Under the pieces are notes generated by a model. It searched no databases. It was given only the letters and a program-made list of their open reading frames with translations, and was not told the origin of the DNA. A DNA stretch of 64,000 bases, from NCBI GenBank assembly GCA_030272155.1, contig CP126202.1, positions 4,113,501 to 4,177,500 of the forward strand. The letters are read 5' to 3'. The position numbers and the translations under genes were made by a program. The stretch is from Tetradesmus obliquus. Taxonomy: Eukaryota; Chlorophyta; Chlorophyceae; Sphaeropleales; Scenedesmaceae. Positions within the stretch are counted from its first letter, which is position 1. The number at the start of each line of letters is the position of its first letter. Below are positions 1 through 51,946 of the stretch, piece by piece.

Positions 1-1321
1 TGCAGTGCCTGCTTCCGGCCCGGAAAGCTTCCGCGGGTCGTGAATGGGTGGGGCAGCCTCCAGCAGAGACCCCTGCTGCGCGGCCAGAGGTTTAATCAGC
101 ACTGCGCGGCCAAAGTCTGCCAGTCGGAATGTTGCGGTGTGCAGCATGAAGATGTTGTACTCTTCCTGCAAGCTTTCCTGCAGGAGGCACAGAGTGGGAT
201 GGAGAAATGGGAAGTGACTATGAACGCTTTTGTTTGTCATGAATTACCATGAAGTTCTAAACTAGATGTAAAGCTTTAAGCGTCTACCTATTGTTACTTT
301 TTCATGTGTCTACATACCTTTTGGCAGCCATCGTGCACGGCACAGCGGCTTGCAGCTGGACAGCAGGTGCTCGTTTGTGGCGGCCTGTGAAACTCCTGAG
401 TGCAGGTGATAAAAAAGACCTAAAACATGCAGTGCGCGTCGAAGATATGTATGCTCTAGAATCAAAGATCGATGACACGCTTTGGTTGGCTGTGCGACAT
501 GCACGGAGAAACATGCCAACCCAAGTCGCATCAATGCATGTGCATTGCTCTGCTACTGCGGAGTCGGGATCCTGCGCCTGATTGTGACGCAAGTGCAGCT
601 GTGCAGTATGCGGGGAGGATATGCCGGCGCGATGTGCGTCAATGACACTGCTGTCGGCGCACACGAGCAACTACTACTGCAAGCACGCTGCGCAGCGCTC
701 ACCTCTGTGCCGTGCTCTGCGGCATCCCCTTCTTTGCCTGCTTTGAATGGCTTGGACTTGGCTGGCCGCAGCTTTTGCAGCAGCACCTCACGCATCGCCT
801 TGGCCAGCACCCAGCCGACTTTCAGGTAGTCTCCAAGACCCACACTCCGCTTGGTGCCAAGGACGACAGCATGCTGCAGGTGTGACAGGAGGTGTGACAT
901 CAGGTGTGACATCAGGAGTGACATCAGATGTGACATCAGGTGTGACATCAGCTGTGACATCAGGTGTGACATCAGATGTGACATCAGGTGTGACATCAGC
1001 TGTGACATCAGGTGTGACATCAGATGTGACATCAGATGTGACATCAGGTGTGACATCAGATGTGACATCAGGTGTGACATCAGATGTGACATCAGGTGTG
1101 ACAGCAGGTATCCAAGGACCGCAGCATGCTGCACGGCAGCAACATCCGGCTGGCATTGTTGCACCCTTTCAGATCAAGATCATAAATTGTCATCATGATT
1201 ATCGTTGACAAACATTACTGATTAGTAACATTTCATATGTGTTCCAAGTGGCCGCCTCACCGGCTTATCCATGATTATGTTGTCCAGAGATAGGTCCATG
1301 TGCACAATGCCCCGCCTGCAC

Positions 1322-1371
<50 letters not shown>

Positions 1372-3479: not shown

Positions 3480-3481
3480 CT

Positions 3482-5744: not shown

Positions 5745-8700
5745 CAATGAGCCCAAACCATCAACTGATATGCTGCAGCTGGAGTTGCTCATGCACCTGT
5801 ACAGCTTGTGTGCCCCCATGCCTTGCAAGGACACCCATGGAACAGCATGCCTGCTGCAGCTGTGGCTTCAGTGGTGTTCAATCAACCAAATACACATTCT
5901 TCTGGTAAGAGGTGAACCCGGAGGAGGAGCCATTCCCAAACCACCTTAGGTGATTCCTAACCAGTGAGTGCAAACGCACAAGCCAGGGCCAGATACGGCC
6001 AAAACACAAAAGCACTTGCTTGCATGTCTCTCAGTCGCTGATGGCCCTGAGCTGGACCACTGCGTCAGTGCACTCCCATGGAACAGCATGCCTGCTGCAG
6101 CTGTGGCTTCAGTGGTGTTATGATGATGATAATGCAGAGCTGCCCAGCCAAGTGGCACTGCAGCTTGCAATGCCCACACAACCTAAAAACACATGTCACA
6201 CAACCCCAAAACACAGATCGAACAGCAGCTGCAGGCGGGAGCTAGCGGACATCACTTGATTCAGCGTTGCTTGCAGGTGTGTGGAATCCTGGATTCACAT
6301 CACCGTCCAAGATGGTGCCAGGACCCACATGTAATTATCTCTTGAAGAATCCATCTAGATACGTCCTTTTGAATCGACTGCTGCAGGCTCAACAGCTGCC
6401 TGCTGCACAGCAACACAGGCCTTGCATCCTTTGCGAACCCTTCAACCTAATGCTGCACAACACACCAAAGCCTCCTGTTTGGGGTCCAAGGAAGGGTGTG
6501 TGGGAAGCGGCCGCTAGAAGTGTGGGAAGCGGCCGTTATGAAGTGCGTGGGAAGCTGGCGCATTGAAGGCAGCTACATCTGGCGACATACATGCCAAATC
6601 CTCCTCCTGCCCAGCCGCCTACCTCAGCCTTGGCTGCGCCGACTCACATCCTAAACCCTCAAACCCTATCCACTGCTGCGCACAAAACATAAACCCTAAA
6701 TCTTTCCGCTGCTAAACCCCAAGCCCCCTACCTCAGCCTTGCTTGCGCCTGCATGCACTGCATCGCTGATCTGCCGGTCCAGTGGAGCCGGGACTGGGTT
6801 GTACACGCGAGTGATGCGCAGAATGTCACCAGGGGTGTACAGCTCCGCAAATATGGGAGACTTGCGGATGAACTGCGGCATTTGCAGCAGCATCAGCAGG
6901 GACACAGGCAGCAGCAGCAGCAGCAGAAGTAGGAACGCAGGCAGTAGCAGTAGGGATGGAGGCAGCAGCAGGGACGCAGGCAGCAGAGGCGGCCTTTGTC
7001 AACAGCACTGGGAAGGCATGGCGGGAGCGGCAATCCCACGTGCCATGCCCCTGCCTGCCTTGCATGTTGCAGCTGTGCAGCTGCAACTGAAACAGCGCGG
7101 CTGAGTGCCCCCGCCTAGCTTCACTTTGCAGCTGTGCAGCTGCCACTGAAACAGCGTGGCTCGCATTGCCCCCTGCCAGCATGGCTCACTCAGCACACAT
7201 GACAATATAACCCGAGCGTCACATAATCGCCATACTTACACTAACATAAATATGACTATGTCAGTAGCCCGCTTGCTTGCATGCAAGCGACTGTAATCTC
7301 TCTACCAGTAACTCCTCAGAGCAGCACGGTGCAGGGCAAAGAATTTGGTGTGGTCTTTGGAACGTCGCCAAAGGCTTCCCGCTGACTAATGACGGAACAG
7401 TAATCCCAAGTGCGTCATCGGTGGAAATCACTACCAAGTGATTACCTCGCGCGGCGGCGCCCCCAGCTGCGCCTGTAACTGCACCAGGTGCAGCGCGTCA
7501 TCGCTGTGCCCAGAGAGGCCCGATTTCAGCTGCCGAATGATCCCCCAACTGCAGCAGCAGCAGCAGCAGCAGCAGGTGTTTGTGGATGGCTTGCGCCACA
7601 CTTCAGCGCCGCAGAGCCGCTGACAGACGTTTGACATTCCGAGGCTGAGGATGTCAACATGCAGAGGCCAGCAATTTGAGAGAGGATAGTTATATGTGGG
7701 TCCTGGCACCATCTTGGACGAGACCCACCACGCCCCCACCTGAACCTGCCAATGTTGTGGCCCATAAGCTCCGCAGGTATGAGCCACAACAGGTTGAACA
7801 CATGGTCTGAGACCAGAAAAGGAGCAATGACTCTCACATGGCTGATTGCTGCAGCGCAGCGCTTGCCCACCTTTGTGTGTCGCAAATTGCGGATCCAGTG
7901 GCCAGCTCCGCCAGCAGGCAGCCGAGGCGCCAGATGTCATAGGCGGGGGCGGCATACGGCAGGCCAAGGATCTCCTGCACACAGCAGCAGCAGCCCATTG
8001 GAGTGTAGCCAAATGTGTGCTGCATGGGCAACTACTACACTACACGTTAATGTTACAAATAACTCAAATTTGACAACGTAATAAATCAATAACGCTCTTC
8101 CCTCATCACCTCGGGCGGGCACAGGCAGGGGTCTGCCATCACCACCATGCCATCTGTATGATAGCCAAATGTGTGCCGCATGCCAACTGTTACAAATGTT
8201 ACAGATGTGACAATATAACACATGATAACACAAATGCGTCCTCACCTCGGGCGGGCGCAAACAGGGGTCTGCCATCACCACCATGCCATCTGCATTGTAC
8301 GCAGCCGTTGCCCGATGCAGCGCCTCTCCTTGCACGTTAGCCCCCACAGCAAGAGGCTGCCCCCAAGGTGGCTCATTCTCCGGCTGCTGCACATCAAATC
8401 CTCCTGCAGCTGCCGCCAGCCGCCTGAAAGGCACAGCTCTGCCAAAGTCGGTCAGCTTGAGCGTGGCCTGGTGCAGCGTGGCGCGCGTGTAGTAGCTGCT
8501 GGGGTCAGCACTTGCCTCTGACAGCTGCAGCAGCAAAGTGGCAGTATTGAAGCTGATTGGTGAGATTCAGCATGGCCTGGTGCACTGTAGGCGCGATTGT
8601 GATAGCTGCGGGGGTCAGCACTCTTAACCTGAAAACTTTAAAACCAGAACCCAAAATCTAAAACGCACCTGCTGCTGCAGCACCTGCTGCGATGAATTGC

Positions 8701-8831: not shown

Positions 8832-11704
8832 GATGCTTTGTTTTTCAACCTTGCGCACAACACCGAGCGAAGCTGTGTCAGAATGTGCATGTCTTGCAGG
8901 CCATTGGAGCGGCACCAGCGCACGGAACACGCGCGCTGATCCTGGGCTTAACATCATAAGGCGACACATTTTTGACTGCTAGGCGCGGCAGCATAATGCA
9001 TGGTTTGCTGCAGTTGCTGAACACCATCATGTTGGCCCATGCCGCACCTCTGTGAGAAACGGCTTGTCCAGTAACACGTTGTCCGCTGACAGGTTCAAGT
9101 GTGCCAGCCCGCGTCTGCATAACACATCAAACACACAAGCCAACCAGCATTGGCGTAAGTCACCTTGGTCTCATAGCTAGCAGTAGCATGGCACGTGGTC
9201 TGTACACATCATGAATTCAGCCAGGAGTGAAATTGGTGCTGTCATGAGCCCTGATCTGCAGCCGATATCACCCTGTCAATCTTGCCCAAACACCAAAACA
9301 TGGAAAAAAGCTGGACACTCACGCGTGCAGGTGGTCAAGCCCCTGCAGCAGCTGGCGCGCTGTGCTGCGCAGTGCAGTCATGCCCTCAGGGGTGCCTGCC
9401 AAGCAGCCTGCTGGTAAGGTCCGCTGCTGCTGCTGCTGCTGCTGCTGCTCCTGCTGCTGCTGCTGCTCAGCCAACTGCTTGTCCCTTGCTTGCAGCATCT
9501 GCAGCACCATAAATGCCTGAAGGGGCGAAGTGTGGGCAGGTGCACAGACACAAGCAATCAGCGATGGCGCGTGTGAAAGAAAGTCACGGGAAGGCTCAAG
9601 CCAGCGGCCCATGCCAGGAGAAACACGTGCCAGTCAGACATGTGGCACCACACCCATTTGGTGTGAAGAAATCTACGAACAACACAAAGTGTGCGTGACA
9701 GCAGCCTTGTGCCAGGTCAGTGACGTGCCAGTTCACGATGACTATCAAAGATCATAGCGAGCAAGCGCGCAGATCGCTAGATATCAAACCTGCACATGCA
9801 CAACAGCGTGTTTCCACCAACCCAGTAGGATGTATCATAAGCCTGCTTGCAGCTGACTGTAACCTCTCTGCCAACAACCCACCAATGCTGATGGCACCAT
9901 TGCTATGGCTTGATCAGCAACAGCATGATGATCATCACCAGCCCACCAGTACCAGCTCCTAGTGTGACAGGAACCCCTGAAAGGAGATACCTCTTTCTGA
10001 GATTTCGCAATACAAATCATTCGAGGGTGACCATGCTGTTACAGCCTGCCCACCTGTGCCAGCTCCTAGCATGCACAGCGACTCAGCACACACGGTCAAC
10101 AGACTTGCGCCAGACACATTTGACCGGGTTTTACTGTTGTTGAACTGACCGTGTAGAATCTGTTACAGTTACAAAGTCAGTTCAACAATAGAAAAACCCG
10201 GTCAAACTCAACTAGTCCAGCAGGCTGCCCGGCAACTTGCCAAAGGCCAAACAGAGTTGAATTGGCATAGCAAAAAGTCAAACCCGGTCAAACTCACGTA
10301 GTCCAACAGGCTTTCAGGCAGCTTGCAAAATCGGTCGACCACAGTCGAGTTCATGTACCACAAAGTCAACACAGTCAAACTCACGTAGTCCAACGGGCTG
10401 TCTGCCAGCTTGCCAAAGGTCAACAAAGTCAGATTCACATAGTTGAAAGTCACACCCGGTCAAGCTCACGTAGTCCAGGGCGCTGCCCTCCCGCTGCAGC
10501 ACCATGCAGGCAAATATGGGACAGCCAAACACAGTCAAAGCCAGTCAACCACAGTCACACCCGGTCAAACTCACGTAGTCCAGGGCGCTGCCCTCCCGCT
10601 GCAGCACCATGCAGGCAAATATGGGACAGCCAAACACAGTCAAAGCCAGTCAACCACAGTCAAACCCGGTCAAACTCACGTAGTCCAGGGCGCTGCCCTC
10701 CCTCTGCAACACCATGCAGGCGTGGCGCCCCGCTGCGCTCCTGTGCTCAAATGCATCCAGCAGCGGCACGATGTTGGGGTGCCTGCCTGCCATGGCGTGC
10801 AGCGCAGCCTCCCGCGTGCCTGCTGTGTAGCTGACGGCATCGCCAGGCTCCATCAGCTGCAGGGTTACAGAAGAATAAGGGTTGAGCGGTGTGCAGAGGG
10901 TTTAAGTGGTGGTTTAGACAGGCCCAGGGTTCAGGGTTCAATAATTAGTTGTATCTTTGGAGCAGGCAGGGAGTGGCTGACTGCATCCCCAGGCTCCATC
11001 AACAGCAGGGTAAAGAAGGGTTTATCGGTGTGCAGAGGCGTTTAAGTGGCGAGGGACCCACGGTGTAGGGTCTGTAATGCGTTATGATGTGTCCAGCAGG
11101 CGGCGGGTTTTGGGTTTGATGCACATGGTCTGCGGTAGAAGTGCTGCTACTCGACAGCACACAAGCACATGTACGGAAGCGACGAGGTCAAACACATCAG
11201 TTGCTGCTGCTGCTGCTGCTGCTGTTGCTGCTGCTACAGGTGCCTATTTGCACTGCTGCTGCGGCTGCTGCTACTGCTGCTGTTGCCCCTGCTGCTCACC
11301 AGCCAGGTCGCTGCTGCTGCTGCCGCTGCTGCTGCTACCACCCCTCACCTTGAGCACTGCCTTCTGCCCACTGGCCAGGTCCCTGCTGACCCACCGCGTG
11401 GTGAAGCGGCCCTGCCCCTGGCCTTCAGGCATCACTAAGTTTAATCAAACCGCTACAGTACCACCTTCTGCCCACTGCTGCAGCTGCTGCTGCTGCTGTG
11501 ACTGTCGCACGCGTCATTATGAGCACCGCCACCTGCCGCTGCTGCGCAGGCCTCACCTTGAGCACCACCTTCTGCCCGCTTTCCAAGTGCCTGCTGACCC
11601 ACAGCATGGCGAAGCAGCCCTGCCCCTGGCCTGGCCTTCAGGCATGATTAGGTTGAATCAAACCGCTACAGCCTCACCTACAGCACCACCTTCTGCCCGC
11701 TGCC

Positions 11705-17300: not shown

Positions 17301-18114
17301 AGCGACAGCAGCAGCAGCAGCGACAGCGGATGGCAGCACCAGTGCAGCCATGGATGGTTCCGGGCTGTGCATTCGTGCGGTGCTGTCCCTGGGGAGTAAG
17401 GTGCTGCTTGACATGCAGCAGCAGCTGCCGCATGCAGCACCTCCAGCAGCAGCAGCAGGCGTGCCAGGCTTTCACTGGTGCTCCATGTCCATCGACCTGC
17501 CGCCTGCAAGCAGCAGCAGCGGCGCCGCCAGCAGCAGCAGCACGGCCCGCAGCACCGACGGCAACATCAGCAGCAGGCGCAGCAGCAGCAGCAGCAGTGC
17601 GACTGCTGTGCTGACGCTGTACATCCTGCCAGCTGAGTCATCGGCACCAGGCGGGGAATGCTCGCCGCTCGGCGATGTCACGCTGCTGCTGCTGCCGCGC
17701 GAAGCAGCAGCAGAGCTTTCTGGCTTTGTGCAGCAGCACCGCTTCACGCAGCAGCTGCTGCAGCCGCTGCTGACAGATATGGCAGTTGCTGTTGCAGAGG
17801 GCGGCGCGTTGCGTGCCAGCGGCACTGCTGCTGCTGCTGCAGCAGCAGCTTGGGGTGACGCTGCAGGTCCTACAAATCACAACACCGGTGCTACAGATCG
17901 CGACTGCGATGATTCGCCCGGCGATTGCTCTGGCAGCGATTGCTCTGCTGGCAGTGATGAGACTGCGCTGGACTACCTTGCTGCTGCATCTGAGGCTGCC
18001 GGCAATGTGCGGCAGTTCCTGGCCACTGCTGGCACGCTGCAGCGCTGCGAGGAGCTCGTGGCGGCGTGCCACCAGGCGTTGCTGGCTGCATACGCCTCGC
18101 AGGCGAGCAGCTGA
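14377..18114 (+). CDS. Multipass membrane protein with long low-complexity C-terminal region, unknown function
   Basis: Four exons join in phase: 14377-14518, 14854-15423, 15767-16074 and 16732-18114, giving about 800 residues. The first two exons hold hydrophobic segments (for example LLLLGCISTWLGLA, ISIWAACAAARLLLLAALWL, LLVQLIAPVAALYWLEKR), probably five or six membrane spans. A basic stretch (EKRSRKAF) follows, then Ala/Gln/Ser-rich linkers. Exon 4 encodes a large domain without recognised motifs (ERTVIANQVCIPGCLLYIGK; LTLYILPAE; DVTLLLLPREAAAEL). The beginning, FPHPQLEASYH followed by RRRR, resembles the start of many anonymous chlorophyte membrane proteins, as far as I recall. Downstream repeats copy its last codons. 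The membrane location is well supported; the role is unknown. Confidence 0.6.
16310..16465. repeat. Short simple repeats in an intron
   Basis: 16318-16405 is built from CACGCACTGCAC/CGCACTGCAC units, followed by three units of ACCAACAACGCA (16428-16462). It lies in the intron before the large last exon of the membrane-protein gene. Confidence 0.85.
16476..16731 (+). repeat. Two upstream copies of the acceptor and 5' edge of exon 4
   Basis: The exon beginning at 16732 (CAG then GTGCAAGCGCCAGAAGAG) has copies at 16476 and 16598, each with a CAG acceptor and reading VQASEQGSQEP and VQAPKQGPRSP. Spacing is 122 and 134 bp. Only the third copy continues into the long open frame. Confidence 0.85.
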
Positions 18115-18810
18115 GCAGCAAGCAGCAAAGCTTTGGGTGGCCACGTGCTGGCTGCATATGCGACGCAGGCGAGCAGCTGAGCAGCAAGCAGCACAGCTGT
18201 GGGCGGCCACGTGCTGGCTGCATATGCGACGCTGGCCAGCAGCTGAGCAGCAAGCAGCACAGCTGTGGGCGGCCACGTGCTGGCTGCATATGCGACGCTG
18301 GCCAGCAGCTGAGCAGCAAGCAGCAAAGTTGTGGGCGGCCACGTGCTGGCTGCATATGCGACGCTGGCCAGCAGCTCAGCAGCAAGCAGCAAAGCTGGGG
18401 GCGGCCATGTGCTGGCTGCATTTGCGACGCAGCAGCAGCAGCAGCAGCAAGCAGCTGAGCAGAAGCGGCAGCACGGGGCGTGCCACAAGGCGCTGCTGGC
18501 TGCGTACGCCTCGCAGGCCAGCAGCTGAGGGGGAATCAAGGTATTCAAAAAGCAGGCAAGCAGCAGCACAGCAGTTAGCTGCGTGCTGCCGGCAGATGCC
18601 TTGCAGGCAAGTAGCGTGCCATCAAGCGCTGCCCAGCGCTGGCTGCATATGCCTCGCAGGCCAGCAGCTGAGGGGGACAGCTGAGCAGAAACCAAGCAGC
18701 AGCACAGCAGGCCCGCAGCTGAGCGGGCAGCTGAGGAGGAGAACAGCAGCGGGGCAGGGGATGGCTACTTGTTGGCCGCGTACGCCTCGCAGGCAGGCAG
18801 CTGGACAGGA
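18079..18810 (+). repeat. 66-bp tandem repeat derived from the C-terminal codons and stop of the membrane-protein gene
   Basis: Starting inside the last codons of the gene, 66-bp units begin at 18079, 18145, 18211, 18277, 18343 and 18409. Looser copies follow near 18492, 18640 and 18772. Each re-encodes the C-terminus LLAAYASQASS with its TGA (or variants such as VLAAYATLASS). The copies lie after the true stop, so they would be 3'UTR. The period is a multiple of three. Confidence 0.9.
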
Positions 18811-19969: not shown

Positions 19970-20312
19970 CAGGCTACAGCCTATGCCAGCAGGCTACAGC
20001 CTTTGCCAGCAGGCTACAGCCTATGCCAGCAGGCTACAGCCTATGCCAGCAGGCTACAGCCTATGCCAGCAGGCTACAGGTATGCCAGCAGGCTACAGCC
20101 TATGCCAGCAGGCTACAGCCTATGCCAGCAGGCTACAGCCTATGCCAGCAGGCTACTGCCTATGCCAGCAGGCTACAGCCTATGCCAGCAGGCTACAGCC
20201 TATGCCAGCAGGCTACAGCCTATGCCAGCAGGCTACAGCCTATGCCAGCAGGCTACAGCCTTTGCCAGCAGGCTACAGCCTATGCCAGCAGGCTACAGCC
20301 TTTGCCAGCAGG
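19970..20312. repeat. 20-bp minisatellite, about 17 copies
   Basis: The unit is GGCTACAGCCTATGCCAGCA. Copies are nearly identical apart from C/T changes (CCTTTG for CCTATG) and one 19-bp unit near 20072 that breaks the reading frame. It grew out of the GGCTACAG element that also occurs singly at 19443 and 19596. Confidence 0.95.
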
Positions 20313-25300: not shown

Positions 25301-25750
25301 CCCACAGTGAAGTCCGCCAACTTCACACCAAACTTCCCGGTCTCCTCAGCCGCTGGCGCTGCTGGGCGCTGAGTCCTCGTTGGCACGCTTCACGGTGAGA
25401 AGTCCCGCAACTTCACACCAAACTTCCCGGTCTCCTCAACCGCTGGCGCTGCTGGGCGCTGAGTCCTCGTCGGCGCGCTTCACGGTGAGAAGTCCCCCAA
25501 CTTCACACCAAACTTCCCGGTCTCCTCAGCCGCTGGCGCTGCTGGGCGTTGAGTCCTCGTCGGCGCGCTTCACAGTGAGAAGTCACCCAACTTCACACGA
25601 AACTTCCCGGTCACTTCAGCCGCCGGCGCTGCTGGGCGCTGAGTCCTCGTCGGCGCGCTTCACGGTGAGAAGTCACCCAACTTCACACCAAACTTCCCGG
25701 TCACTTCAGCCGCTGGCGCTGCTGGGCGCTGAGTCCTCGTCGGCGCGTTT
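25301..25750 (-). repeat. 90-bp tandem repeat of the U2AF-like C-terminal codons and stop, five copies
   Basis: CACGGTGAGAAGT-type junctions fall at 25391, 25481, 25571, 25661 and 25751, an exact 90-bp period. On the minus strand each unit encodes KRADEDSAPSSASG and a stop, the C-terminus of the two-RRM protein. The unit nearest the gene is the functional end; the others lie in the 3' flank. Copies differ at only a few bases. Confidence 0.95.
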
Positions 25751-33084: not shown

Positions 33085-35213
33085 ATGCCACAACGCAGCA
33101 GCAGGCCCCGCCATGCGCCTAGTGTGCTGGATGATTTGGGTCAAGAGATCACGGGGATTATGGCCCCTGTGTCTATCTGCATGGCAATAACAGTGCTGCT
33201 GGTCAAGGCACTCAACCCAGAAGGCACAGCAGATACAACAACAGTGGCCATCGCCACACTCGCTTACCAAGAGCAGGTGTGTTGTAACAAGCAGCAGCTG
33301 GACATGGTATGGAAGTTGTTGAAGAATCCACTGGAGTGCTTTGGATGCAGTGCCAACAGCACAGCAGCTGCTGCGTAGTGCAGCAACACACCTGGGGTGC
33401 ACCCAAGCCAGCAGCGGCAGAGGCAGCAGCATCATCATCATCATGTTGCCATTTAAGCCATAGCAACGTCGCCATCGGCCCCGCGCCCCACAGGAGCGGC
33501 TGAAAGAACAGGCGAAGGGGCAAGGGGAGGGAGCACTATTTCATTATCCCGCTTGCAGACATTCCTGTGATTCCAGGCAAGAACAAGGTAGTCAGCAATA
33601 AGCCGAGCAGCCAACCTGCAAACACCAGATCCACCCCAGACATCGTCAGAAACAAAACGCAACACCATGGCAGAGGGGTCAGTCATGACCAATAAAGTGC
33701 GCAGTTTTCCAGCGCAACCTGGCAGCCTTCGCAGCTCTGCGTACATAGATTCCCTCAAATCAGAGGTGTCAGGACACTCCAAAACAAAGTGGGACAAAGT
33801 CTCAGTAGCAGAGCCACATGCAGGACAGACAGTGGTAGGATTGGCCCGACGGCCACCATATGTGCTTGTACGTGCATGCACACACAAGCAGCGCAGACGA
33901 ACTCGCATCAGGAGCTCGATACCACGTGAAGGACAACCCGAACACAAAAATGGCCTAGGTGCCTTGAAACGCATAGAATCAACATGAGTTTTAGGCACGT
34001 GAGTGACGTAAGTGCCAAAAGTCGATTTCTTGCTGGCAGCATCAGCCGCCACATCAGCGTAGATGGATGCCACCTGCCGCCTGATGTGATTTTTGCACTC
34101 CTTAGCTGACCCGGACGCAACTGCAACATTCACACCATATTTGCACAAAAGGCTGTGTACATACTTCTGCCAACCGGTTAGCAGCGTAGCACCTGGGCTC
34201 TCCATTCTGCAGAAACAACCTGCTTAGGCAATCTGGATACAGAGGCAGCAGCATGTGGCTACGCACCGGACATCAACAATGGCGCCCTAGATCTGTTACA
34301 CCTGTACATCCCATCCAGCATCTGCTGCTGCTGCGCGCAAGCTGCAATCATGCCCCTAAGTTCCCACCTCTTTGGTGCTCTGCTGTGCTGTCAACGTTTG
34401 CTGTGATGCTGCCTGCCTGCCTGCATTGCCGTCAACCGCAGGACACTGACCGCCGCTGTTAGCAAGTCGCAATCGTGCCCCTGAGTATCTACATATGTGT
34501 GCGCTGCTGTGCTGCCAACATCTGCTGTGCTGCTGCCTGCCTGCGCTGCCGTCAAAACCGTAGGACACTGACTCAGCTGACCCGGCATCTACTGTTGCAT
34601 GCAAGCTGCAAGCATGCCCCTGAGTTCCCACATGTGTGTGCGCTGCTGTGCTGCCAACATTTGCTGTGCTGCTGCCTGTGTTGCCGCCAAAATCGCAGGA
34701 CACTGACTCAGCGGGTCAGAAGCTGGGTGGAGCGCTGCTGAATGCCATCATTTTCATGGCAGTCATTGCCGGCATGACCTTTGTGCTCTTCCTGCTGTTC
34801 AAGTGGGGGGTGAGCGGGCTGTGACCGCGCAGCAGCAGCAGCAGAAGCAGCAGCTGTAATGACATAGCAGCAGTGGCAGCAGCAGTGGCGGCAGCAGTAG
34901 CTGTGCTGATGGTGACGGCAGCAGCAGCAGCAGCAGCAGGCAGTGGCAGCAGCTGAGGATGAGCTAGGTGCAGCTGCAATTACTGACATTCCCGAGAGGC
35001 CAGGCATGCAACTAGCTGGCCAACTGTAAATGATGAGAATCTTTGACAAGGGATGTCTCGCTCATCTGGCTAATGCGCAACACAGCAGCATGCCATTCAT
35101 CAGTTCAGCAGCGGCAGCAGCAGCAGCAGCTAGGGACAGGCTCCAGCCGGGGGTAACTTTCACAATGCACCTGTCTTTACTCTTGCCCTCTCCCACACAT
35201 CCCTGCTGCTGCG

Positions 35214-35244: not shown

Positions 35245-37503
35245 AGTGCTACAAGCTGATTTACGGCTACATGGGCTTTGCCATGCTCAACATATTCTTC
35301 TTCTTCACAGGCGCACTGGTGCTGCAGCTGCTGCGGCTGATAGGGCTGCACATGGACCTGTTCTCGCTGGCATTCCTACTCTTCAACTTCTCGGTGAGAA
35401 CTTCAGGGCGCTGATGCTGGCTCCGGTGGGAAGTTAGCGTGAACTTTGCAGTCTGAGCTTACACCAAGCAGTTGGTGTTGAATACATCGCAAGCTTGCGC
35501 AAAGCTGTGGGAAAGGATTGGCTGATCGCCTGCTGCATTGTATTTCTTGCATGGAAACCCTTTTGAAATGCTTCACACAGCAGTACCTTGGTCTTGCTTC
35601 ATTCATGAGGCTGACAACACAACCTTCTGCACCTGCCTGCCTCAATTGCGCACAACTCAGGACTCGTGGGTGTCTATTTTTGTTGTTATACAACTGCTGC
35701 TTCTCCGTAGGTTCTAGGCATCCTCAGCCTGTTTGTGATGCCGGTGCCGGTGCTGCTGAAGCAGAGCTACACAGTGTGGGTGGGCATCTGCTCACCTGAC
35801 TGCCTGCGCTGTGCTGTTGTTTTTTGGTACCACAGGTGCTAAGCATCCTCAGCCTCTTGGTGATGCCGGTGCCGCTGCTTGTTCGTCTATGCTGTCACAC
35901 ACAACACATCTGCTCACCCGCGTGTGCTGGTTACGTATATTGTGTCCCCGCAGGTGCTAGGCATCCTCAGCCTCTTTGTGATGCCGGTGCCGCTGCTGCT
36001 GAAGCAGAGCTACACGGTGTGGGTGGGCATCTGAGCACCTGCCTGCCTGCGCTGTGCTGTTGTGTTCAAACGCTCTGCAGGTTTTAGGCATCCTCAGCCT
36101 CTTCGTCATGCCGGTGCCGCTGCTGCTCAAACAAAGCTACACGGTGTGGGTGGGCATCTGCGTTGCCTACATCTTCACGCACATCCCGGAGTGGACGAGC
36201 TGGGTGCTGCTGGTCATCATGGCGCTGTATGACCTGGCTGCAGTGCTGCTGCCGGGCGGGCCATTGAAGGTGTGTGGTGTTTGATCATGCGTGCATTAGA
36301 GTCTGTTGGGGAGGGGGAGTTATGTTGAGGGGTGCTGCTGGTCATCATGGCGCTGTATGACCTGGCTGCGGTGCTGCTGCCGGGCGGGCCATTGAAGGTG
36401 TGTGGTGTTTGATCATACGTGCATTAGAGTCTGTTGGGGAGGGGGAGTTATGTTGAGGGGTGCTGCTGGTCATCATGGCGCTGTATGACCTGGCCGCAGT
36501 CCTTCTGCCGGGCGGGCCGCTCAAGGTACGTTTTTGATGTTATTTTGATGTTGGTGACATGTTTGTGGTGCTCAGGAAGTGTGGGTGCTGCTGGTCATCA
36601 TGGCGCTGTATGACCTGGCCGCGGTGCTGCTGCCAAATTGGGGTGGGGGGGACGGGGCGCTCAAGGTGTGATTATTTGTTTATTCTGAAGTTTTTTGAAA
36701 AGGAAAGGCATTGGGTGCTGTTGGTCATCATGGCGCTGTATGACCTGGCTGCGGTGCTGCTGCCGGGCGGGCCATTGAAGGTGTGTGGTGTTTGCTCATA
36801 CGTGCATTAGAGTCTGTTGGGGAGGGGGAGTTATGTTGAGGGGTGCTGCTGGTCATCATGGCGCTGTATGACCTGGCTGCAGTGCTGCTGCCGGGCGGGC
36901 CGCTCAAGGTGCAGTTAGATGTTATTGTGATGTTAATAACATGTTTGTGGTGCTCGGGAAGTGTGGCTGCTGCTGGTCATCATGGCGCTGTATGACCTGG
37001 CTGCGGTGCTGCTGCCGGGCGGGCCGCTCAAGGTACGCCTCTGAAGTTGGAAGGTGAACCCAGTAAGGCTGTGTTTTGCACTCAGTGTGTGGGTGCTGCT
37101 GGTCATCATGGCGCTGTACGACCTGGCTGCAGTGCTGCTGCCCGGCGGGCCGCTCAAGGTGGGCTGTCCATCTTATAGTGGGTTTGTAGTTGGTTTGTCG
37201 TGAGTGCGTATGCGCTCAGAGAGTGTGTTTGGTGCATCTTAAGGGGCGGTGTACGACCTGGCTGTGGTGCTGCTGCTGGGGCGGGGGGGGGGGGGGGGGG
37301 GGGGCTCAAGGTGGGCTGCTAATATCAGCGATTGTCTGTGGGGCGTGACGCCTGGGACATCCGAATCTATGCAATGCTTTGAGGCGCTCTGGACGTTACG
37401 TGTGTGCGAGAATCCGAGGAAGGTGAAGAGCCACTTCCAGAAACATGGTCACACAGCAGTTCAGTTGGGCGTCGCTGTTCACCGAAACCCTGTGGCATGA
37501 GCT

Positions 37504-37551: not shown

Positions 37552-38950
37552 AGATCCTGGTTGAGCTCGCCATCGAGCGTCAGCAGGAGCTGCCAGCACT
37601 CATCTACGAGTCCCGCCCTACCCAAAGGCCCTACCAGCGAGGCATGTGGCGGCGCCAGCCGCCAACCGGCAGCAGCAGCAGCAACGCAGCAGATGGCAGC
37701 AGCAGTGCTGCTGTCGGCAGTGGATCGGGGCTGGCGCATGTTGCTGTAGCAGGAGGGGGTGGCGTGCTTGCAGGAGAGATTGTGTCAGGTTCGGGAGGTA
37801 GCCCGAATGTATTTGCGCGTGTTGCGCTGCTGGGAGATCAGCAGCACAGGTCATCATGGGATGAGGCGGCCGCATCACCACAGGTATCTCAGGAGCTTGC
37901 GCTAGCTGGCAGCAGCAGCAGTGGCGGCGGCGGCAGCGGGAATGCGGCCGGCGGCGGCGGGCGGTTTGGCAGTGCGCGGCGGCGCGGCAGCGGCAATGGG
38001 GATCGGTCAGGTGGCGGGGCTGTGCCTCTGGCAGAGGGCCGGGAGGAGCAGGGGGAAGATGTGGCTGTGGAGCAGCAGCAGCTGCTGCTGTTGCAGCAGG
38101 AGCAGCAGCGTAGTGATGCAGCCTGGCATAGTAGACCGGCAGCAGCAGCAGCAGCTGCTGCTGGCGCTGCAGGCGATAAAGGCAGAGGCCCCCTGGGCGA
38201 GGGTGTGGAAGATGGCCCTGCTGCTGCAGCTGGAGCTAGCAGCAGCAGCAGCAGCAGGAGCGGGCTGCTGCCAGCAAGCGGCAGCTCCAGTGCTGCTGCA
38301 GGCGCAGCATTGACACCTGCACCAGCAGCAGCTGCCGCCGCCGCCGTCCCAGATGGCCGCAGCACTGCTGCTGCTGCTGCTGCTGATTCGGGCCAGCCCG
38401 GCAGCAGCAGCAGCGATGGTGGAGAGGGCAGTGAGGGGGAGCTGCCTGATGGCATCAAGCTGGGGCTGGGTGACTTCATCTTCTACAGCATGCTGGTGGG
38501 GCGCGCTGCTATGTACGACATGATGACAGGTGGGTGTGCTGCTGTCAGGTCTTCGGTTTTGTATGTATGCGGTCAGGGGGCGGCTGGTGCAATGGGCATG
38601 CGTGTGCATCGACTACAGCATGCTGGTGGGGCGCGCGGCGGCGTACAGGTAGGTGCGCGTGTGCTGGATATGTATGCTTGTGTGTGGCGCTGTGCTGAAC
38701 AGGCTGCATCACGCAAAAGAGTTGTGAAGGGCGTGTGGGGCAGCATCATATCGCCAATCAAGCCATAGCAAGGATACCCCTTGTGTGCTTCGGCCTCCCC
38801 GTGCATATGTACTTGGAGGTGGTGTAGCCCCTGGTCTGCGCAGTTGCGCTGAGCTGAGGAAACTCTTGCGCTGCTGCTGCGTCTGCTGCATCCGCTGCTT
38901 CCTGCGGTGTTCGCGTGATACATTGCTGTCATATCCGCGCTGGGCATCAC

Positions 38951-38991
<41 letters not shown>

Positions 38992-39185
38992 ATACTGCAG
39001 TGTTTGCGTCCTACATCGCCGTCATATCCGGGCTGGGCATCACGCTGATGCTGCTGGCGCTATACCGCAAGGCGCTGCCTGCGCTGCCTGTCAGCATTGC
39101 GCTGGGGGTGCTGTTCTACTTCCTGACGCGCTTGGTGATGGAGCCGTTTGTGGTGCCACTGTCGCTAAACATGGCCTACTACTGA
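33085..39185 (+). CDS. PSEN: Presenilin, catalytic subunit of gamma-secretase-type aspartyl protease
   Basis: Six exons: 33085-33276, 34699-34809, 35247-35393, 36081-36269, 37554-38529 and 39001-39185, with matching phases, 599 residues. Presenilins are multi-membrane-span aspartyl proteases of endomembranes. The N-terminus (VLDDLGQEITGIMAPVSICM) closely resembles plant presenilins. The first catalytic Asp (about 201) is in MALYDLAAVLLPGGPLK, the second (about 520) in IKLGLGDFIFYSMLVG, and the PAL motif is in RKALPALPVSI (about 563-570). The loop between the two Asp residues is about 320 residues against about 130 in human presenilin, swollen by Ser/Ala/Gln/Gly-rich sequence. Intron 1 contains an antisense LINE remnant. 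Introns 1, 3, 4 and 5 contain copies of neighbouring exon edges. All key residues are intact, so a functional protease is expected. Confidence 0.92.
33420..34240 (-). mobile_element. 5'-truncated non-LTR retrotransposon (LINE) inside presenilin intron 1
   Basis: A 250-codon frame (34205-33453) runs antisense to presenilin. It has the zinc-binding pattern CPACGSATETLSHFVLECP found at the C-terminus of LINE reverse transcriptase ORFs, preceded by the typical Arg-rich stretch (LLMRVRLRCLCVHARTS) and followed by VLAWNHRNVCKR. The catalytic reverse transcriptase domain is missing, as expected after 5' truncation. The frame ends GDVAMA and stop, and a short ATG-repeat (33433-33444) lies just past it instead of poly(A). 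The element's exact ends and target-site duplication were not found. Confidence 0.75.
34375..34698 (+). repeat. Two upstream copies of the 5' edge of presenilin exon 2
   Basis: The exon start at 34699 (AG then GACACTGACTCAGC) has copies at 34441 and 34564 with 60-100 bp of the preceding intron, including GCTGTGCTGCCAACATTTGC. Spacing is 123 and 135 bp. The copies read QDTD and then lose the frame. Confidence 0.85.
35711..36033 (+). repeat. Three upstream copies of the 5' half of presenilin exon 4
   Basis: Copies at 35711, 35836 and 35954, each with an AG acceptor, read VLGILSLFVMPVPVLLKQSY or variants. The fourth (36081) is the functional exon. The copies stop at or before the VWVGIC codons and have no donor. 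Spacing is 118-127 bp. Confidence 0.9.
36332..37312 (+). repeat. Eight downstream copies of the presenilin exon segment with the first catalytic Asp
   Basis: The 3' third of exon 4 (LLVIMALYDLAAVLLPGGPL, at 36204-36269) and its donor recur starting at 36332, 36460, 36585, 36715, 36843, 36967, 37093 and about 37228. Spacing is 124-135 bp. Most copies keep the coding sequence nearly unchanged, with synonymous differences, and a GTGTGT, GTACG or GTGGGC donor. The copy at 36585 has a mutated end and the last ends in a 22-base G run. None has a clear acceptor directly before it. Confidence 0.93.
37283..37304 (+). repeat. Run of 22 G
   Basis: The homopolymer sits in the last degenerate copy of the presenilin exon-4 segment. 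It can form a G-quadruplex on the transcript strand. Confidence 0.9.
38600..38962 (+). repeat. Copies of presenilin exon 5 end and exon 6 start in intron 5
   Basis: 38613-38650 repeats YSMLVGRAAAY with a GTAGGTG donor, a copy of the GxGD exon end. 38925-38962 repeats the start of exon 6 (IAVISALGITL). Both lie in intron 38530-39000, which ends in a CTG tract and CAG. Confidence 0.85.
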
Positions 39186-44956: not shown

Positions 44957-45014
<58 letters not shown>

Positions 45015-45111
45015 AGGCCTGGCACGCGACGTCAGCAAAGAGCTGCATCGTAAGGTGGACTTGAAGCGGCCATAGCTGCTGACGCTCCTCCTCGTCCTCC
45101 TGGTGCTGCTG

Positions 45112-45154
<43 letters not shown>

Positions 45155-45771
45155 AGACCTGGCGCGTGAGATCAGCAAGGAGCTGCCTGACGTGCAGGTG
45201 GACTTACGGACAGTAATAGCTGACATTGCTGCTGCTGCTGCTGCTGCTGCTGCCGCCGCAGACCTTGCGCGTGAGATCAGCAAAGAGCTGCCTGACGTGC
45301 AGGTGGACTTCCTGCGGGCCAGCAGCTACGGCACGGCCTCCGAATCATCGGGGCAGGTGGCGGTGCAGACCACCAGCGACCTGGGACGATGGGAGGAGTT
45401 CCACATCCTGCTGGTGAGCTGCGCTAGCCTATTGTGTGAGGGATAATGGCCGACTGGCTTTCACTGCTTTATCAACAGATCAAACTTGCTTGCTGTAAGT
45501 ACTGTTACAACTCCACACATCCTGCTGGTGAGCTGCATGAGCCTATCAAGCAAGAGCAGCAGCTGTAGGTGGTGGTGCTGCGGCAATAGAACGCTTGATA
45601 AGATGAGGGAAGCAGCTTGACATCCTGTTGATGATCCCGGTTGCTTGCATGTAAGTCTTTGTTTGTAGCACTTGTGGGTGCAGCGCAACTACTGGTGTTG
45701 CAGCTGCAGTGACTCGGCAAGGGGGCAGCAGCACAGCACAGTGTCGGCTAGCATGTGTATGGCCTCTCAGA

Positions 45772-45805: not shown

Positions 45806-47268
45806 GCCGGGGTAGGCTGATGTGCAGCGGGCGCCAGGCAGCAGCAGCCGCAGGCATTGGCAGCGCCGCTGCCGCCGCGGGTCAGCAACAGCGTCGCAGC
45901 GTAGCAGGCCTCTGCTGTTCTCTTCTGGCATGGTTGCGCATGGTCTCGCATGGCGTGAAGCGTACAGCATCAACTCATGGCTTGGCTTTCTGACTGCTGC
46001 TTGTGCTGTCACTCAACCCACTGCACACACACCTCAGGTGGAGGACATCATCGACAGTGGCCACACGCTGGCAAGGCTGGGCAAAGTGCTGAGCGCTGCT
46101 GCTGCTGCTGCTGCTGCTGTTGCACCCCACTGCACACACACCTCAGGTGGAAGACATTATCGACAGCGGGCACACGCTGGCAAGGCTTGGCAAGGTGCTG
46201 AGCGCTGCTGGTGCGCAAAGTGTGAAGGTGGTGGCGCTGCTAGACAAGAAAGGCCGGCGGCGTGTGGAGTTCTTCCCCGACTACTGCGGCTGGGAGGTAC
46301 GGGGGCTTTAGTATTGTTGTGTCATTGTTATTGTAGCTCACTTATAATATTGGAGGTTGATGCATGGTGGGGGCGCTGCTGGGCAAGAAGGGGCGGCGAC
46401 GTGTGGAGTTCTTCCCTGACTACTGCGGCTGGGAGGTGAGAAGATAGAAATATGAACTTACATGATTGATGATCTACATATAGTTTTCAATTCCATTCTG
46501 CAAGTTGAAGCACGGTGGTGGCGCTGCTGACAAGAAAGGGCGGCGGCGCGTGGAGTTCTTCCCTGACTACTGCGGCTGGGAGGTGCGGATTTTTAGGATG
46601 TTTGTTTAGTTTGTCGATACGTGTCGTAAGGATGTGTTGCCTAGGTGGTTGTTTTTTCTGGGCTGCTGCAGCTAGGAGATGCACTTTCCCGGGCTGGGAA
46701 ATGCACAAAGGGCTTTGTTGTTGCATGACTTGCTGCGGCTGGAGGGCGGGACCTCTGGCTGGCTGCTGGTGGCGCTGCTGGACAAGACAGGGTGGCGGCG
46801 TTTTGACTACTGCAGCTGGGTGGTGCGGGGGCTTTATTCTCTTGTGTGGCGTGCAAGTTGATGCATGAAGACCAGTCAATTCTTGGCTGCTGCGGCTGGG
46901 AGGTGTGACTTTATTTTCTGTGTAATTCAAGAAAGGTTTTTGATGTATGTTGTTGGTGCGTTCTGCAAGTTGATGCATCAGTACCAGTTCTTCTTGGACG
47001 ATTGTGGCTGGCGGGTAGGTGGTGCAGGCGTCCCAAGGCTGCTGGCTGTTCGTCCTGGCGCTGGCTGCTGTTGCGTTGCATTCTGCGCTTGCTGCAGCAC
47101 GCCAGTGTCAGTGCGTGCCAGCTGGATTGCACGCCTTGCCGTTCACGGCTATTGCTGCAGCAGCAGCCAAACGCGGCTGTGTGGCAGACCTGCAGTCACC
47201 CGTAGCCTGGGTCAGGTGACAAAAGCACCCGGGCATCAACACCTATCTTCAACTCATGCTGCTGCTGC

Positions 47269-47308: not shown

Positions 47309-47471
47309 GCTGCTGCTGCTGCTGCTGCTGCTGCTGCCGCTGCTGCTGCTGCTGCTGCAGTGCCCCAACGAGTTTGTGGTGGGCTATGGGCTGGACTTTG
47401 ACGAGCGCTTCCGCTGCCTGCCATATGTGGCTGCACTCAAGGAGGAGGCCTACGCAGGCAGCGGCCACTGA
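44114..47471 (+). CDS. HPRT: Hypoxanthine-guanine phosphoribosyltransferase, probably organelle-targeted
   Basis: Five exons: 44114-44285, 44393-44530, 45262-45413, 46147-46296 and 47361-47471, with phases 1, 1, 0, 0, giving 240 residues. The enzyme salvages purine bases with PRPP. Core motifs: [31 protein letters not shown] (PPi loop), [18 protein letters not shown], the PRPP-binding [15 protein letters not shown] (catalytic Asp about residue 160), [18 protein letters not shown], and [20 protein letters not shown]. The first about 57 residues ([20 protein letters not shown]) form a basic amphipathic leader absent from cytosolic HPRT, suggesting a mitochondrion or plastid. Exons 3, 4 and 5 each have duplicated edges. 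CTG tracts precede the acceptors of exons 3 (copies) and 5. Family assignment is firm; purine specificity cannot be told from sequence. Confidence 0.9.
45017..45215 (+). repeat. Two upstream copies of the 5' edge of HPRT exon 3
   Basis: Copies begin at 45017 ([16 protein letters not shown], then a stop) and 45157 ([16 protein letters not shown], then a stop). The intact exon begins at 45262 ([20 protein letters not shown]). Each copy is preceded by a CTG tract and CAG, so each has a credible acceptor. Confidence 0.9.
46038..46092 (+). repeat. Upstream copy of the 5' edge of HPRT exon 4
   Basis: 46038-46092 reads [19 protein letters not shown] after a CCTCAG acceptor, almost identical in protein to the intact exon 109 bp downstream, then runs into GCT repeats in the wrong frame. 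It contains the PRPP-binding motif. Confidence 0.9.
46366..47012 (+). repeat. Five downstream copies of the 3' edge and donor of HPRT exon 4
   Basis: The segment [17 protein letters not shown] plus donor recurs at 46366-46435 and 46514-46582 almost intact, at 46767-46829 in shortened form, and at 46880-46903 and 46985-47012 as short fragments. All keep a GT after the GGGAG/GGCGG context. Confidence 0.85.
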
Positions 47472-47540
47472 TTGCAACAAAACACAGCTGGCTTCAGGCC
47501 ATGTGCCAGGGGCTTTTGGTATTGGTGCCCTGCTTGGCTG

Positions 47541-47798
47541 CACTTAATGGGGAGGCCTACGCAGGCAGCTGCCACTGATCAGCAGCATGGAGAACACGCT
47601 GGTGCTGGCCATGCTTGTTGCAGCCTGGTGCGTGACGTTATTTTGCGTGCCGCACTCAAGGAGGAGGCCTGTGCTGGCAGCGGCCACTAATGGGAACAAA
47701 GCGCACCTGGTGTCAGATCATGGGCCAGGAGAGTGTCAGCTTGGGCGCCATATGTGGCTGCACTCAAGGAGGAGGCCTACGCAGGCAGCGGCCACTGA
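47541..47798 (+). repeat. Three downstream copies of the HPRT C-terminal codons and stop
   Basis: The end of the gene ([12 protein letters not shown] and TGA, to 47471) recurs at 47541-47577 (NGEAYAGSCH), 47651-47690 (ALKEEACAGSGH) and 47759-47798 ([12 protein letters not shown]), each with its stop codon. They lie before the TGTAA at 47870 and so in the 3'UTR. Confidence 0.92.
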
Positions 47799-48640: not shown

Positions 48641-48642
48641 TG

Positions 48643-48647: not shown

Positions 48648-48663
48648 CTTGCAGCCCTTGATA

Positions 48664-48752: not shown

Positions 48753-49740
48753 GGGGCCCTGCTGCTAGGCCCATGCAAGACACCACTTGCTTTGCATGCC
48801 TAAAAACTCTGCCAACCCATGCAACACACCATGTACAGCTCCTTTGGCCCTGCTGCTAGGCCCATGCAATACACCATTTACAAGCCTTGTAGCCCTGCTG
48901 CCGCCAACCATCAATGCAGTTGGGCTTGCCCAATTGTGCTGTGGTAGCGAGCCAGTAGGATTCCGTCCCCCCTGGTAACCAAAACAAAAAACCATCAATG
49001 CGCAATCAGATATCCAGACCCCTGTGGCAGGTCTGATCAGACAAGCACAATGTGCTGTCTAGCACGCCTCAAACTGCAATCAAACTTATGATACACTTGG
49101 CAAGTCCAATCGTGTCCACTCGTGAACGACCGAAGCGCAGCCACTTCAAACTGACCCAGAAAGGGCAGGACTAGCCAGCAGAACAACCAAACAACAACCC
49201 AGCGAGGCTCGCCAATCCGTCCCAGGCCAAGCACAACAAGATACGCGCCAACGCAGCACAACAGTGGCAACCACGCCCAACACAGCCCAAGCCAGTCACA
49301 CCAAACATCACTGCAGACCCAGCACACAACCCCAGCAGCGTTGCACTGCGATGGAGCTGGTTGTGGGCCAGCATACACACAGCGTGCATGTGTACTTCTT
49401 TGTGTTCTGCAGCGCACATCCACAACGTATTCCTGCAAACCACAGAACGCATGTGCCGCCACCATCTACAAATGTACACAGCCACTGGCTGTTGTGACAG
49501 CATCAACAGCCTCCAGCATTCGCCAACTGTCTCAGCACACTCCAGCACAATCCAGCACAACACCATCAGCAGCAGCTTCAACAACACTCCCAGGCTCCTC
49601 CGTGCAGCACAGAGCCGGCGTGCGCCGTTTGCGCCTCACTAGTTGCACCGCCACAGTGGTCCCGCCTACAGTAGGGGCGAGGCAGGCGCCACATCCCCGG
49701 GAGTGCTGCCGCAGCTGCTGCTTGTGTGCTGTGCCACAGC
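48753..49740 (-). other. A/C-rich (plus strand) 3' flank of the gene at 49741
   Basis: No gene recognised. The GGCCCTGCTGCTAGGCCCATGC segment type occurs twice (48756 and 48847). Composition mirrors the region left of the hairpin. Confidence 0.4.
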
Positions 49741-51946
49741 CTAGCTGGTCATCTTGCGGGCAGCCAGCAGCACCAGCGGCAGCACCACCCAGCCAGCAGC
49801 ACGCCGCAGCAGGCCGCGCTTCTTTGAGGTGCGCTGCTGCTGCTGATGCTGCTGCTGATGCTGCTGCTGATGCTGCTGCTGCTTGCTGTCATCGCCCAGC
49901 ATCTCAGCAGCATTGGTGGCGCTGCTGCAAGCCGCCATGCCCCAGGGGTCGTCTGGGAGCTCGTGAGCATCAGCTGCGCTGCTGCTGCCAGCTGCGCCAC
50001 TGCTGCCTTTGGCGTTGCCCTGCATGCCGAAGGGGTCTTCGGGCAGCATGTCAGCTGCGCCGCTGCTGATGCCACTGGCGCTGCACTCCATGGCAAAGGG
50101 GTCAGCAGGCAGCCGGTACGCAGCTGCTGCTTGCTGGGGCCCTGCTGCAGCAGCCGGCAAGGTGGAGCTGCCAGCGCCGATGATGCCTTCAAAGCTGTAC
50201 GCGCCGCTGCTGCTGCTGCTGCTGCTGTCCGCGATGTAGCTGCCGGCAATGCTGCTGCTGCTGTTGTGCTTGCTGCTGCTGCGAGCAATGTTAAAGCCGT
50301 CGAAGCTCAAGCTGCTGCTGTTGCGAGCGATGCTGCCGCGCACCCAGCCACAGCCGTTTCTGCTGGTGTCAGTGCTGCTGAGACGCACACAGCTGAAACG
50401 GCTGGTACTGGTGTCAGTGTTGCTGTGCCGCACACAGTTGAAGCCACCGCTGCTGCTGCCACTGCTGCTGCGGCGCACATAGCTCAAGATATCACTGATG
50501 CTGCTAGTGCTGCTGCGGCGCACATAGCTGAAGATGCTGCTGCGGCTGCTGTCAGTGCTGCTACGGGGCACACAGCCGAAGCCGCTGCTGCTGCCAACAC
50601 TGCTACCGCGGCGCACAGAGCTCACGATGCTGCGGCGGCTGCCAGTGCTGGTGCGGCGCACACAGTTCAAGCCGCCGCGGCTGCCGCTGCTGCCATTGCT
50701 GCTGCGGCGCACGCAGCTCGAGTCATCAGGGCTGCCGTCCAGCTCCAGCAGGCCGTCTGGCAGGTAGTAGATAGCTGCCTGCTTCACAGGCCCTGCTGCA
50801 GCAGCTGGCATGGTTGCGCTGCCGGGGCTGCGGCTGCTGCTGCGGGTGTTGAAGCAGTCGCTGCCGCTGCTGCTGCCATCCATCTTCTCCAGGGCGCTGG
50901 GCAGGTAGCACTCAGCCTCCCTCTCACCAGGCCCTGCTGCTGCTGCTGTGGTTGTTGCTGCTGCTGCTGCTGCTGCCGCTGCTGGTGCCGCCGCCATGTC
51001 CTCCAGGTGCCAGCGGTCCACATACGCCTGCACTGCTGCTTGCAGGACAGCCAAGTAGCTGCCACCCCCGGCAGCGGCAAGCACTGCGCCGGCAGCTGCG
51101 AGGTGTTCTGGCATCACCAGCACATCATAGCCGCAGCCGTTGCAGATGGCTGTCTCCTGCTGTCTGAATGCCCCCTGGATAAGCTGCAGCATGCTGAATA
51201 CCGTGGGGTTCTGTGGGGACAGGCCTGCAGGACAGGGGTGCAGCACACATCATGCGGCAGCAGTGTTTACAGCAGCGAAGGACCTATAGTACGTGGGTCA
51301 GCGAGCGAAATGAGTGTGCGCATGCTATGCATGTGTTCAAACTGACAGGGCAGGGCATAAGCAAGCTGCTGGGACTGGTGATGAGCAGTGTGCAAGAGCT
51401 TGTTGCAGTACATGCAGGGCTTGCAGGATTCCTGCAAGCTGCAGCGCAGTGTGTGGCCACTGCTTGTTGGGGGTTGTGCAGTGCTTGCAGGATTCCTGCA
51501 AGCTGCAGCGCAGCCCATGAGGACTGCAGGTTACTTTGGAGAGGCAAGCTGTATTGCAACTGTGAAGGGCTTCTTACCTGAGCGGTACAGCAAATAGTCA
51601 GGCAGCACCACCAAGGGGTGGCTCCTGCTGCTGCTGCACATCTTCTCCACCAGCCACAGCTGCACACAGCACACATCAGCGCAGGCAGAGGCAGAGTAGT
51701 GAGCATACAGACGCTTGTTGCAGTTATGCAGCCTGGTGCACTGCGGTCACATGGCTGAAGTGTGTCGATGTGTGCTTGCAAGCAAGAAAGAGGAGGCAGT
51801 AGTCAGAGGCAACTGCATGCAATGTCTCACCAGCGTCAGCAGCAGGTTGAGCACGTCGGATGTGCTGATGGCTGCCTGCAGTGCGCCGCTGCTGCTTGAG
51901 CGCAGTGCAATGGCGTACATGTATGCCAGGGTATCCAGCAGGGAAC
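49741..51946 (-). CDS. Uncharacterised protein with Ser/Arg-rich repeats and C-terminal membrane anchor (5' end missing)
   Basis: Three exons join in phase: 51946-51831, 51659-51578 and 51224-49741. The N-terminal part (LLDTLAYMYAIALRSSSSGA; LWLVEKMCSSSRSHPLVVLP; GLSPQNPTVFSMLQLIQGAF) looks like a helical folded domain that I do not recognise. Then come repeats such as YLPDGLLELDGSPDDS and PADPFAMEC / PEDPFGMQG / PDDPWGMAA, and about ten Ser/Arg-rich units of the type SYVRRSSTSSISDIL. A poly-Gln/His tract leads to RRAAGWVVLPLVLLAARKM, a hydrophobic C-terminus with basic flanks, which suggests a tail anchor. Upstream exons exist but were not fixed; a frame at 52373-52270 (MHDRSPVLRAIYWHDKGM) is a candidate. 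Confidence 0.55.
51413..51512. repeat. Direct repeat containing a palindrome
   Basis: GCTTGCAGGATTCCTGCAAG followed by CTGCAGCGCAG occurs at about 51419 and 51484. The core CTTGCAGGA/TCCTGCAAG is itself palindromic. It lies in the intron before the last exon of the gene at 49741-51946. Confidence 0.85.

Follow-up and report, generated by a model that had tools for sequence, protein, structure and literature searches.

In tandem exon duplication with mutually exclusive splicing, whole exons are copied together with both splice sites, and in the concerted evolution of tandem arrays repeats are kept alike while their spacers are free to differ. Tandem duplication across an intron-exon boundary is, moreover, a known route of intron gain, as in the potato RdRp case (PMC4974935), and is treated as such in a review (PMC3443670). 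In the literature that we consulted, junction-crossing duplications have been reported case by case, with the gain of new introns as the point of interest. Here we describe a stretch of 64,000 nucleotides from the genome of the green alga Tetradesmus obliquus (Scenedesmaceae; C12:4113501-4177500), hereafter the window, in which several genes carry head-to-tail copies of their own exon edges. The assembly comprises 104,662,953 bases in 17 contigs. For another T. obliquus assembly, a published table gives 7.8 introns per gene, a mean intron length of 462 bp and a coding sequence share of 15.7% (PMC5966456).

The arrangement is clearest in two genes of the window, whose models for HPRT and presenilin match solved structures (presenilin a PDB presenilin entry and also Pfam PF01080, E 3.8e-21). 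This bears out the names given in a preliminary description of the window. The protein derived from the HPRT exons is 100% identical over 96% of the length to OEZ86_004924, a hypothetical protein of T. obliquus. The intact presenilin exon at window positions 36081-36269 (plus strand), recognised from these matches and from its junctions, has an acceptor in which TGCAG is followed by GTTTTAGG and a donor in which TTGAAG is followed by GTGTG. In the alignment, three copies of its 5′ part with the acceptor lie upstream at 35702-36080 (exon starts 35711, 35836 and 35954, with their junctions), and seven copies of its 3′ part with the donor lie downstream at 36270-37313 (ends 36397, 36525, 36665, 36780, 36908, 37032 and 37158) together with one decayed copy. 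This decayed copy of the exon end, at 37250-37313, is interrupted by a long G run and still ends in CTCAAG followed by GTGGGC. At a later presenilin exon (38870-39056, plus strand), an acceptor-side copy upstream of the intact start at 39001 has decayed (38908; AG lost, in-frame stop).

In the HPRT gene, four coding edges are copied one to three times each, all on the plus strand. Two acceptor-side copies (45017, 45157) precede the exon start at 45262 (region 44957-45310), and one (46038) precedes that at 46147 (45994-46214). Downstream of the exon end at 46296, there are three donor-side copies (ends 46435, 46582 and about 46822; 46227-46836). The fourth edge is the coding end with its stop codon (47471), which is followed by three copies (47578, 47690 and 47798; 47420-47798), so that for HPRT the copying of a stop codon, as reported in the preliminary description, is confirmed. 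Exon loci independent of the pointers in that description were obtained from a genome-wide Pfam DEAD search with 35 matches, from which 15 loci with 19 matches were fetched, hand-picked before their repeats had been viewed and with a preference for short exons. Of the 38 sides of these exons, 9 had edge copies, distributed over six loci (L037, L038, L039, L042, L043 and L048). At all nine sides the 5′ part with its acceptor is copied upstream or the 3′ part with its donor downstream. The geometry proposed earlier thus holds in the aligned HPRT, presenilin and DEAD families: copies with an acceptor precede the intact exon, and copies with a donor follow it. The earlier proposal that segments spanning a junction were duplicated in tandem was right.

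The same copies could have been made by exon-only copying into nearby introns via RNA, cDNA or templated repair, in which case the spacers would never have been homologous. The last HPRT stop copy (47747-47798) has this appearance, as its 52 bp are identical to the intact end between unalignable flanks while the nearer copies are more diverged, and in presenilin the homology stops sharply at the exon edge. However, the copies carry GT or AG as in the genome, often together with a stretch of intron, they are always direct, and they lie on the side predicted by tandem duplication. Many spacers, furthermore, retain residual homology (mean identity 0.52 versus 0.39 for shuffled spacers). We regard this origin as very unlikely.

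The preliminary account of these duplications missed their more unusual feature. In the copies, exon parts and splice sites show the kind of change expected of sequence in use, and yet the adjoining intron spacers are often unrelated. We compared 16 families with 44 copies, among them seven HPRT and presenilin families selected since the preliminary description pointed there; the intact exon of each family was our choice. The unique exon changes comprise 108 silent and 65 replacement ones, i.e. 62% are silent. Free drift of the copies next to an intact exon accepting silent changes only would give at most 45.5% (P 6e-6). An expected silent share of 0.295 was taken from the mutation spectrum of 14 full-unit repeats assumed to be non-coding. 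Those by which the intact exon differs from every copy amount to 16:0 (silent to replacement), and the changes common to some copies to 17:2.

Splice sites were compared for all copies except two: the first acceptor copy of L039, which is cut by the end of the locus, and a decayed donor copy of L039 near 2179, which has GC, not GT, at the aligned place. These two were also left out of the divergence comparison. GT is present in 24 of 25 donor rows, and the remaining row, one base out of register, also reads GT. The G at position +5 is kept in 24 of 25, whereas the bases at +4 and +6 match those of the intact donor in no more than 15 rows each. Among the acceptor copies, AG is found in 13 of 14 and lost in one. 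Judging from these comparisons, the copies look as if they had served as functional exon ends for much of their past.

Such constraint on code and sites would also be expected if the copies were in use now, with splicing drawing on several near-identical, interchangeable exon ends, or with the extra sites regulating splicing, and selection keeping both. If true, this would amount to redundancy below the exon level. However, by eye in the alignments each copy has just one splice site, with nothing at its opposite end that would consistently serve as a partner, so that its route into the mRNA is doubtful. In at least 6 of the 44 copies the aligned part is interrupted by a stop or thrown out of frame by an indel, and one acceptor copy has lost AG. 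In the annotated HPRT protein and in the proteins of relatives, two of them transcriptome-derived, each segment is present once; which copy is actually used cannot be read from proteins, the differences being silent. Present use of the copies is, in our judgement, quite unlikely. One of the relatives' transcriptome-derived HPRT proteins, P0010, differs in its N-terminus just before the DLAREIS exon and otherwise equals P0005, which may reflect an alternative start or a retained intron.

In pairs whose introns align well, exon and intron have drifted together, as expected from simple tandem duplication. The intact exon and a copy then diverge by 0.121 in the exon and 0.169 in the intron (15 of 41 pairs), and two copies by 0.094 and 0.118 (9 of 50 pairs). 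When the 34 pairs of intact exon and copy with an exon divergence of at most 0.2 are considered, introns are unalignable (z at most 3) in 15, intermediate in 7 and well aligned in 12, whereas simulations of this comparison at two indel rates left 3.5% and 11% unalignable. Of the 17 DEAD pairs taken alone, 6 have introns that cannot be aligned and 5 have introns that align well. Among 79 adjacent pairs from the window and 20 further genomic stretches, 34 show a bounded core with an identity of 88% or more next to an unaligned spacer that is 25 bp or longer, as against 107 of 1,211 pairs simulated with an assumed age distribution. Core versus spacer identity (0.93 versus 0.52, 33 pairs) was given up as sole evidence; since it is partly a selection effect, with simulated pairs under the same filter giving 0.91 versus 0.59, class proportions and the junction-anchored comparison were used instead. 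Within the presenilin array, the exon divergence between the copies at 36838 and 36960 is 0.02, and their introns are unrelated (0.47, z 0.5). The types of spacer in this array reappear out of order. In a four-gamete test, 5 of 16 informative site pairs fail. These features fit an exchange between copies and are no proof of it.

To our minds, the best explanation is a short tandem duplication that is silent across one junction, followed by an exchange confined to the exon parts and by shifts in which copy is used, a scenario to which we give about an even chance. Head-to-tail duplications, for the most part about 90-170 bp long, arise or have arisen in very large numbers in the nuclear genome of T. 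obliquus, both at exon borders and away from them. A duplication spanning a junction would leave the mRNA unchanged if the site beside the intact exon is used, and would be tolerated; one lying within an exon would usually be removed. The exon parts in an array would keep exchanging by unequal crossing-over or gene conversion, because selection on the copy in use would maintain their homology, and the intron spacers would drift until they can no longer be aligned. Gain and loss of units would shift the copy in use over time, so that the surviving copies would have been screened for coding and splicing. Use of the copies in today's mRNA would not be required.

A number of observations weigh against this scenario. 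Changes private to one copy (49:44) are, taken alone, within the neutral bound (P 0.10), and the families vary, the presenilin 3′ family showing 7:1 while DEAD38 (6:11) and the HPRT stop family (4:4) look plainly neutral. The four-gamete failures are few and could result from repeated mutation. Exchange and turnover of the copy in use are deduced from a single genome sequence. Furthermore, the scenario does not account for the centring of units at about 124 bp, and the per-copy breakdown depends on our choice of the intact exon.

Plain neutral duplication, by which chance junction-spanning duplications are silent and the extra copies merely decay, would yield the same geometry and the divergences seen in pairs with alignable introns. 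It would likewise accommodate the changes private to one copy and the frame-shifted or interrupted copies. What it does not predict is the silent excess (108:65), in particular the 17:2 ratio among changes common to some copies, or the retention of donor positions +1, +2 and +5 while +4 and +6 vary. Nor does it predict unalignable introns beside like exons in 15 of 34 pairs, where the simulations gave 4-11%. On balance we consider neutral decay alone unlikely.

The duplication part of the favoured scenario extends well beyond the genes discussed so far. Self-BLAST of the window revealed many local direct repeats, which after filtering correspond to 27 head-to-tail arrays with about 86 copies between positions 1 and 51000. 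Array counts omit six minisatellite or satellite regions and low-complexity matches, and copy number per array is the span divided by the smallest lag. The 20 further stretches contain 61 arrays, at least one in 15 of the 20, and five later stretches contain 14, in 3 of the 5. All 25 stretches, each of 10 kb and taken at fixed round positions on contigs C1-C16, thus give 75 arrays per 250 kb, with arrays in 18 of 25. With the low-complexity filter on, 157 direct and 0 inverted repeat pairs were found in the 25 stretches at lags of 60-1500 bp; with the filter off, two inverted pairs appeared in 20 stretches and one in the window. A third-order Markov resample of the 250 kb produced 0 repeat pairs, direct or inverted, versus 157 in the real sequence, which excludes chance. 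The spacing of adjacent copies has a median of 124 bp and quartiles of 109 and 139.5 bp (79 non-redundant pairs, lags 60-200 bp, window and 20 stretches). The uniform orientation and the narrow spacing speak for tandem duplication and against dispersed copying. The preliminary description had counted well over 40 copies in 50 kb, with units of mostly 85-160 bp, and had called this extraordinary; the duplications are indeed extraordinarily frequent. Assembly artefacts, the doubt that it had raised itself, are not favoured: the copies differ by several per cent or more, they share one orientation, and 18 of the 25 stretches, which come from many contigs, contain arrays. We regard such an origin as extremely unlikely.

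As to the origin of the duplications, triplet tracts at repeat ends showed no clear excess (24 of 316 end windows, 7.6%, versus 5.6% at random); tracts of the CAG/CTG class are very common in the window and the stretches. Breakpoint microhomology was sought, and there were no usable young two-copy cases. Sequence logos at raw repeat ends displayed no excess of GT or AG and were replaced by the junction-anchored analysis.

According to the preliminary description, almost every duplicated segment holds a splice junction or a stop codon and mid-intron duplications are rare, so that either a replication or repair process targets exon borders or copies are tolerated there. It had suggested comparing the frequency of tandem duplications at exon borders with that at random positions. 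On our samples, this comparison gave a modest excess and no strong enrichment. Under random placement in which positions wholly within an exon are forbidden, 4.8 (sd 1.8) of the 16 repeat families at the DEAD loci would be expected to reach a known exon border; 9 of them do (P 0.02). These families were listed by hand, and of the seven non-border ones, one is low-complexity coding sequence (L046) and others could touch unrecognised exons. Coding-like 60-mers, recognised by a codon-usage score that was trained on 1,721 codons and judged on its own training exons, are contained in 33 of 79 duplicated spans (42%) versus 33% of random spans, with 34 versus 26%, 16 versus 19% and 14 versus 11% at stricter thresholds. 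Of the core windows, 20% exceeded a threshold that was also exceeded by 61% of exon windows, 10% of random windows and 2% of spacer windows. In a silent/replacement scan of all repeats, P was below 0.05 in 17 of 108 pairs (median P 0.58), and most repeats are therefore not visibly coding. The three-base periodicity of mismatches over all repeats is significant yet weak (1595 versus 1474 expected, sd 15.6).

The claim of near-universal junction content is not borne out by the border count and the coding content. Tolerance of the copies, the other half of the earlier interpretation, is sensible. A mechanism of replication or repair directed at exon borders could explain the border count at the DEAD loci and the doubled share of coding-like windows in the cores over random windows. 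The excess, however, is only about 1.3- to 2-fold and vanishes at a stricter threshold, many arrays show no sign of coding, and the duplications are genome-wide. Moreover, part of the border excess is expected because exon-containing copies stay recognisable for longer. Exon borders are targeted only modestly, if at all, and a dedicated process of this type appears highly improbable.

Further copies and arrays lie elsewhere in the window. In the gene described as U2AF-like, on the minus strand, an RRM-like piece (25780-25982) and another exon end (27028-27211) are present in two copies each. The name is backed by RRM proteins of known structure at E 2e-5, whereas NCBIfam matches are weak and far below the cut-off. 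Similarly, the WW-like gene has a Pfam match at E 5e-5 which yet falls below the cut-off. The kinases of the preliminary description could not be confirmed, with no Pfam match and structures only at E 0.4-1. Two short arrays (8051-8295 and 8450-8622) lie in one kinase-like region, and an array with units of 86-105 bp and about 6.5 copies (10165-10721) adjoins a kinase-like open frame. Arrays with no known exon are located at 1511-2241 (unit about 106 bp, about 6.9 copies), 34325-34712 (unit 125-139 bp, about 3 copies) and 50204-50987 (diverged, unit about 135-141 bp). The array at 26221-26714 (unit about 86-93 bp, about 5.7 copies) may or may not include exon sequence.

Excluded from all counts is a satellite-like array at 57186-60373, with a 282-bp unit, about 11.3 copies and 99% matches. 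The minisatellites at 877-1109, 18080-18455, 19970-20313, 25309-25758 and 61022-61231 (units of 12, 66, 20, 90 and 57 bp, respectively) were left out of the array counts. An open frame at 33456-34223 (minus strand) resembles, by eye, the end of a retrotransposon reverse-transcriptase protein, with no Pfam match at E 0.01. At L014:7850-8399, a 114-bp (38-codon) repeat has one frame open throughout, and its differences are mostly silent (16:5). Unlike the exon-edge copies, it is probably a true protein repeat.

Our literature search, which did not extend to preprints and most subscription journals, retrieved no description of this pattern. We know of no report of such duplications at this scale, or of copies evolving under constraint. 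If the density of 75 arrays per 250 kb held over 104.7 Mb, there would be roughly 31,000 arrays, a good part of them at exon edges. This would permit a statistical study of the fate of duplications, of intron growth, of splice-site choice among near-identical sites and of the exchange of working exon ends with spare ones. The alga is amenable to culture and resequencing. For annotation, the near-perfect extra exon ends inside introns are a warning.

Among the closest described systems is the intron gain in potato RdRp (PMC4974935), where a short duplicated segment likewise crosses an intron-exon boundary and includes the splice signals. There, however, one event gave rise to a new intron and altered the gene structure, whereas T. 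obliquus has many arrays per gene, located at the 3′ end or inside introns that already exist, without evidence of a new intron, and its exon parts are alike while spacers diverge. Introners resemble the T. obliquus arrays in being abundant intron-associated repeats of algae and other protists, but they are dispersed over many genes (PMC9860276, whose text does not mention Tetradesmus). Near-identical intron sequence at many unrelated genes was not found for the presenilin unit of 201 bp, the one unit queried against the whole genome: its 8 matches, with the best candidates scored, all lie in its own array. Mutually exclusive tandem exons share with our case the neighbouring copies of exon sequence in one gene; the T. 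obliquus copies, in contrast, are partial exons with one splice site, as judged by eye. Concerted tandem arrays, finally, show the same combination of like repeats and diverging spacers, with the difference that in T. obliquus the repeat is the edge of a working exon, of which only one copy is needed.

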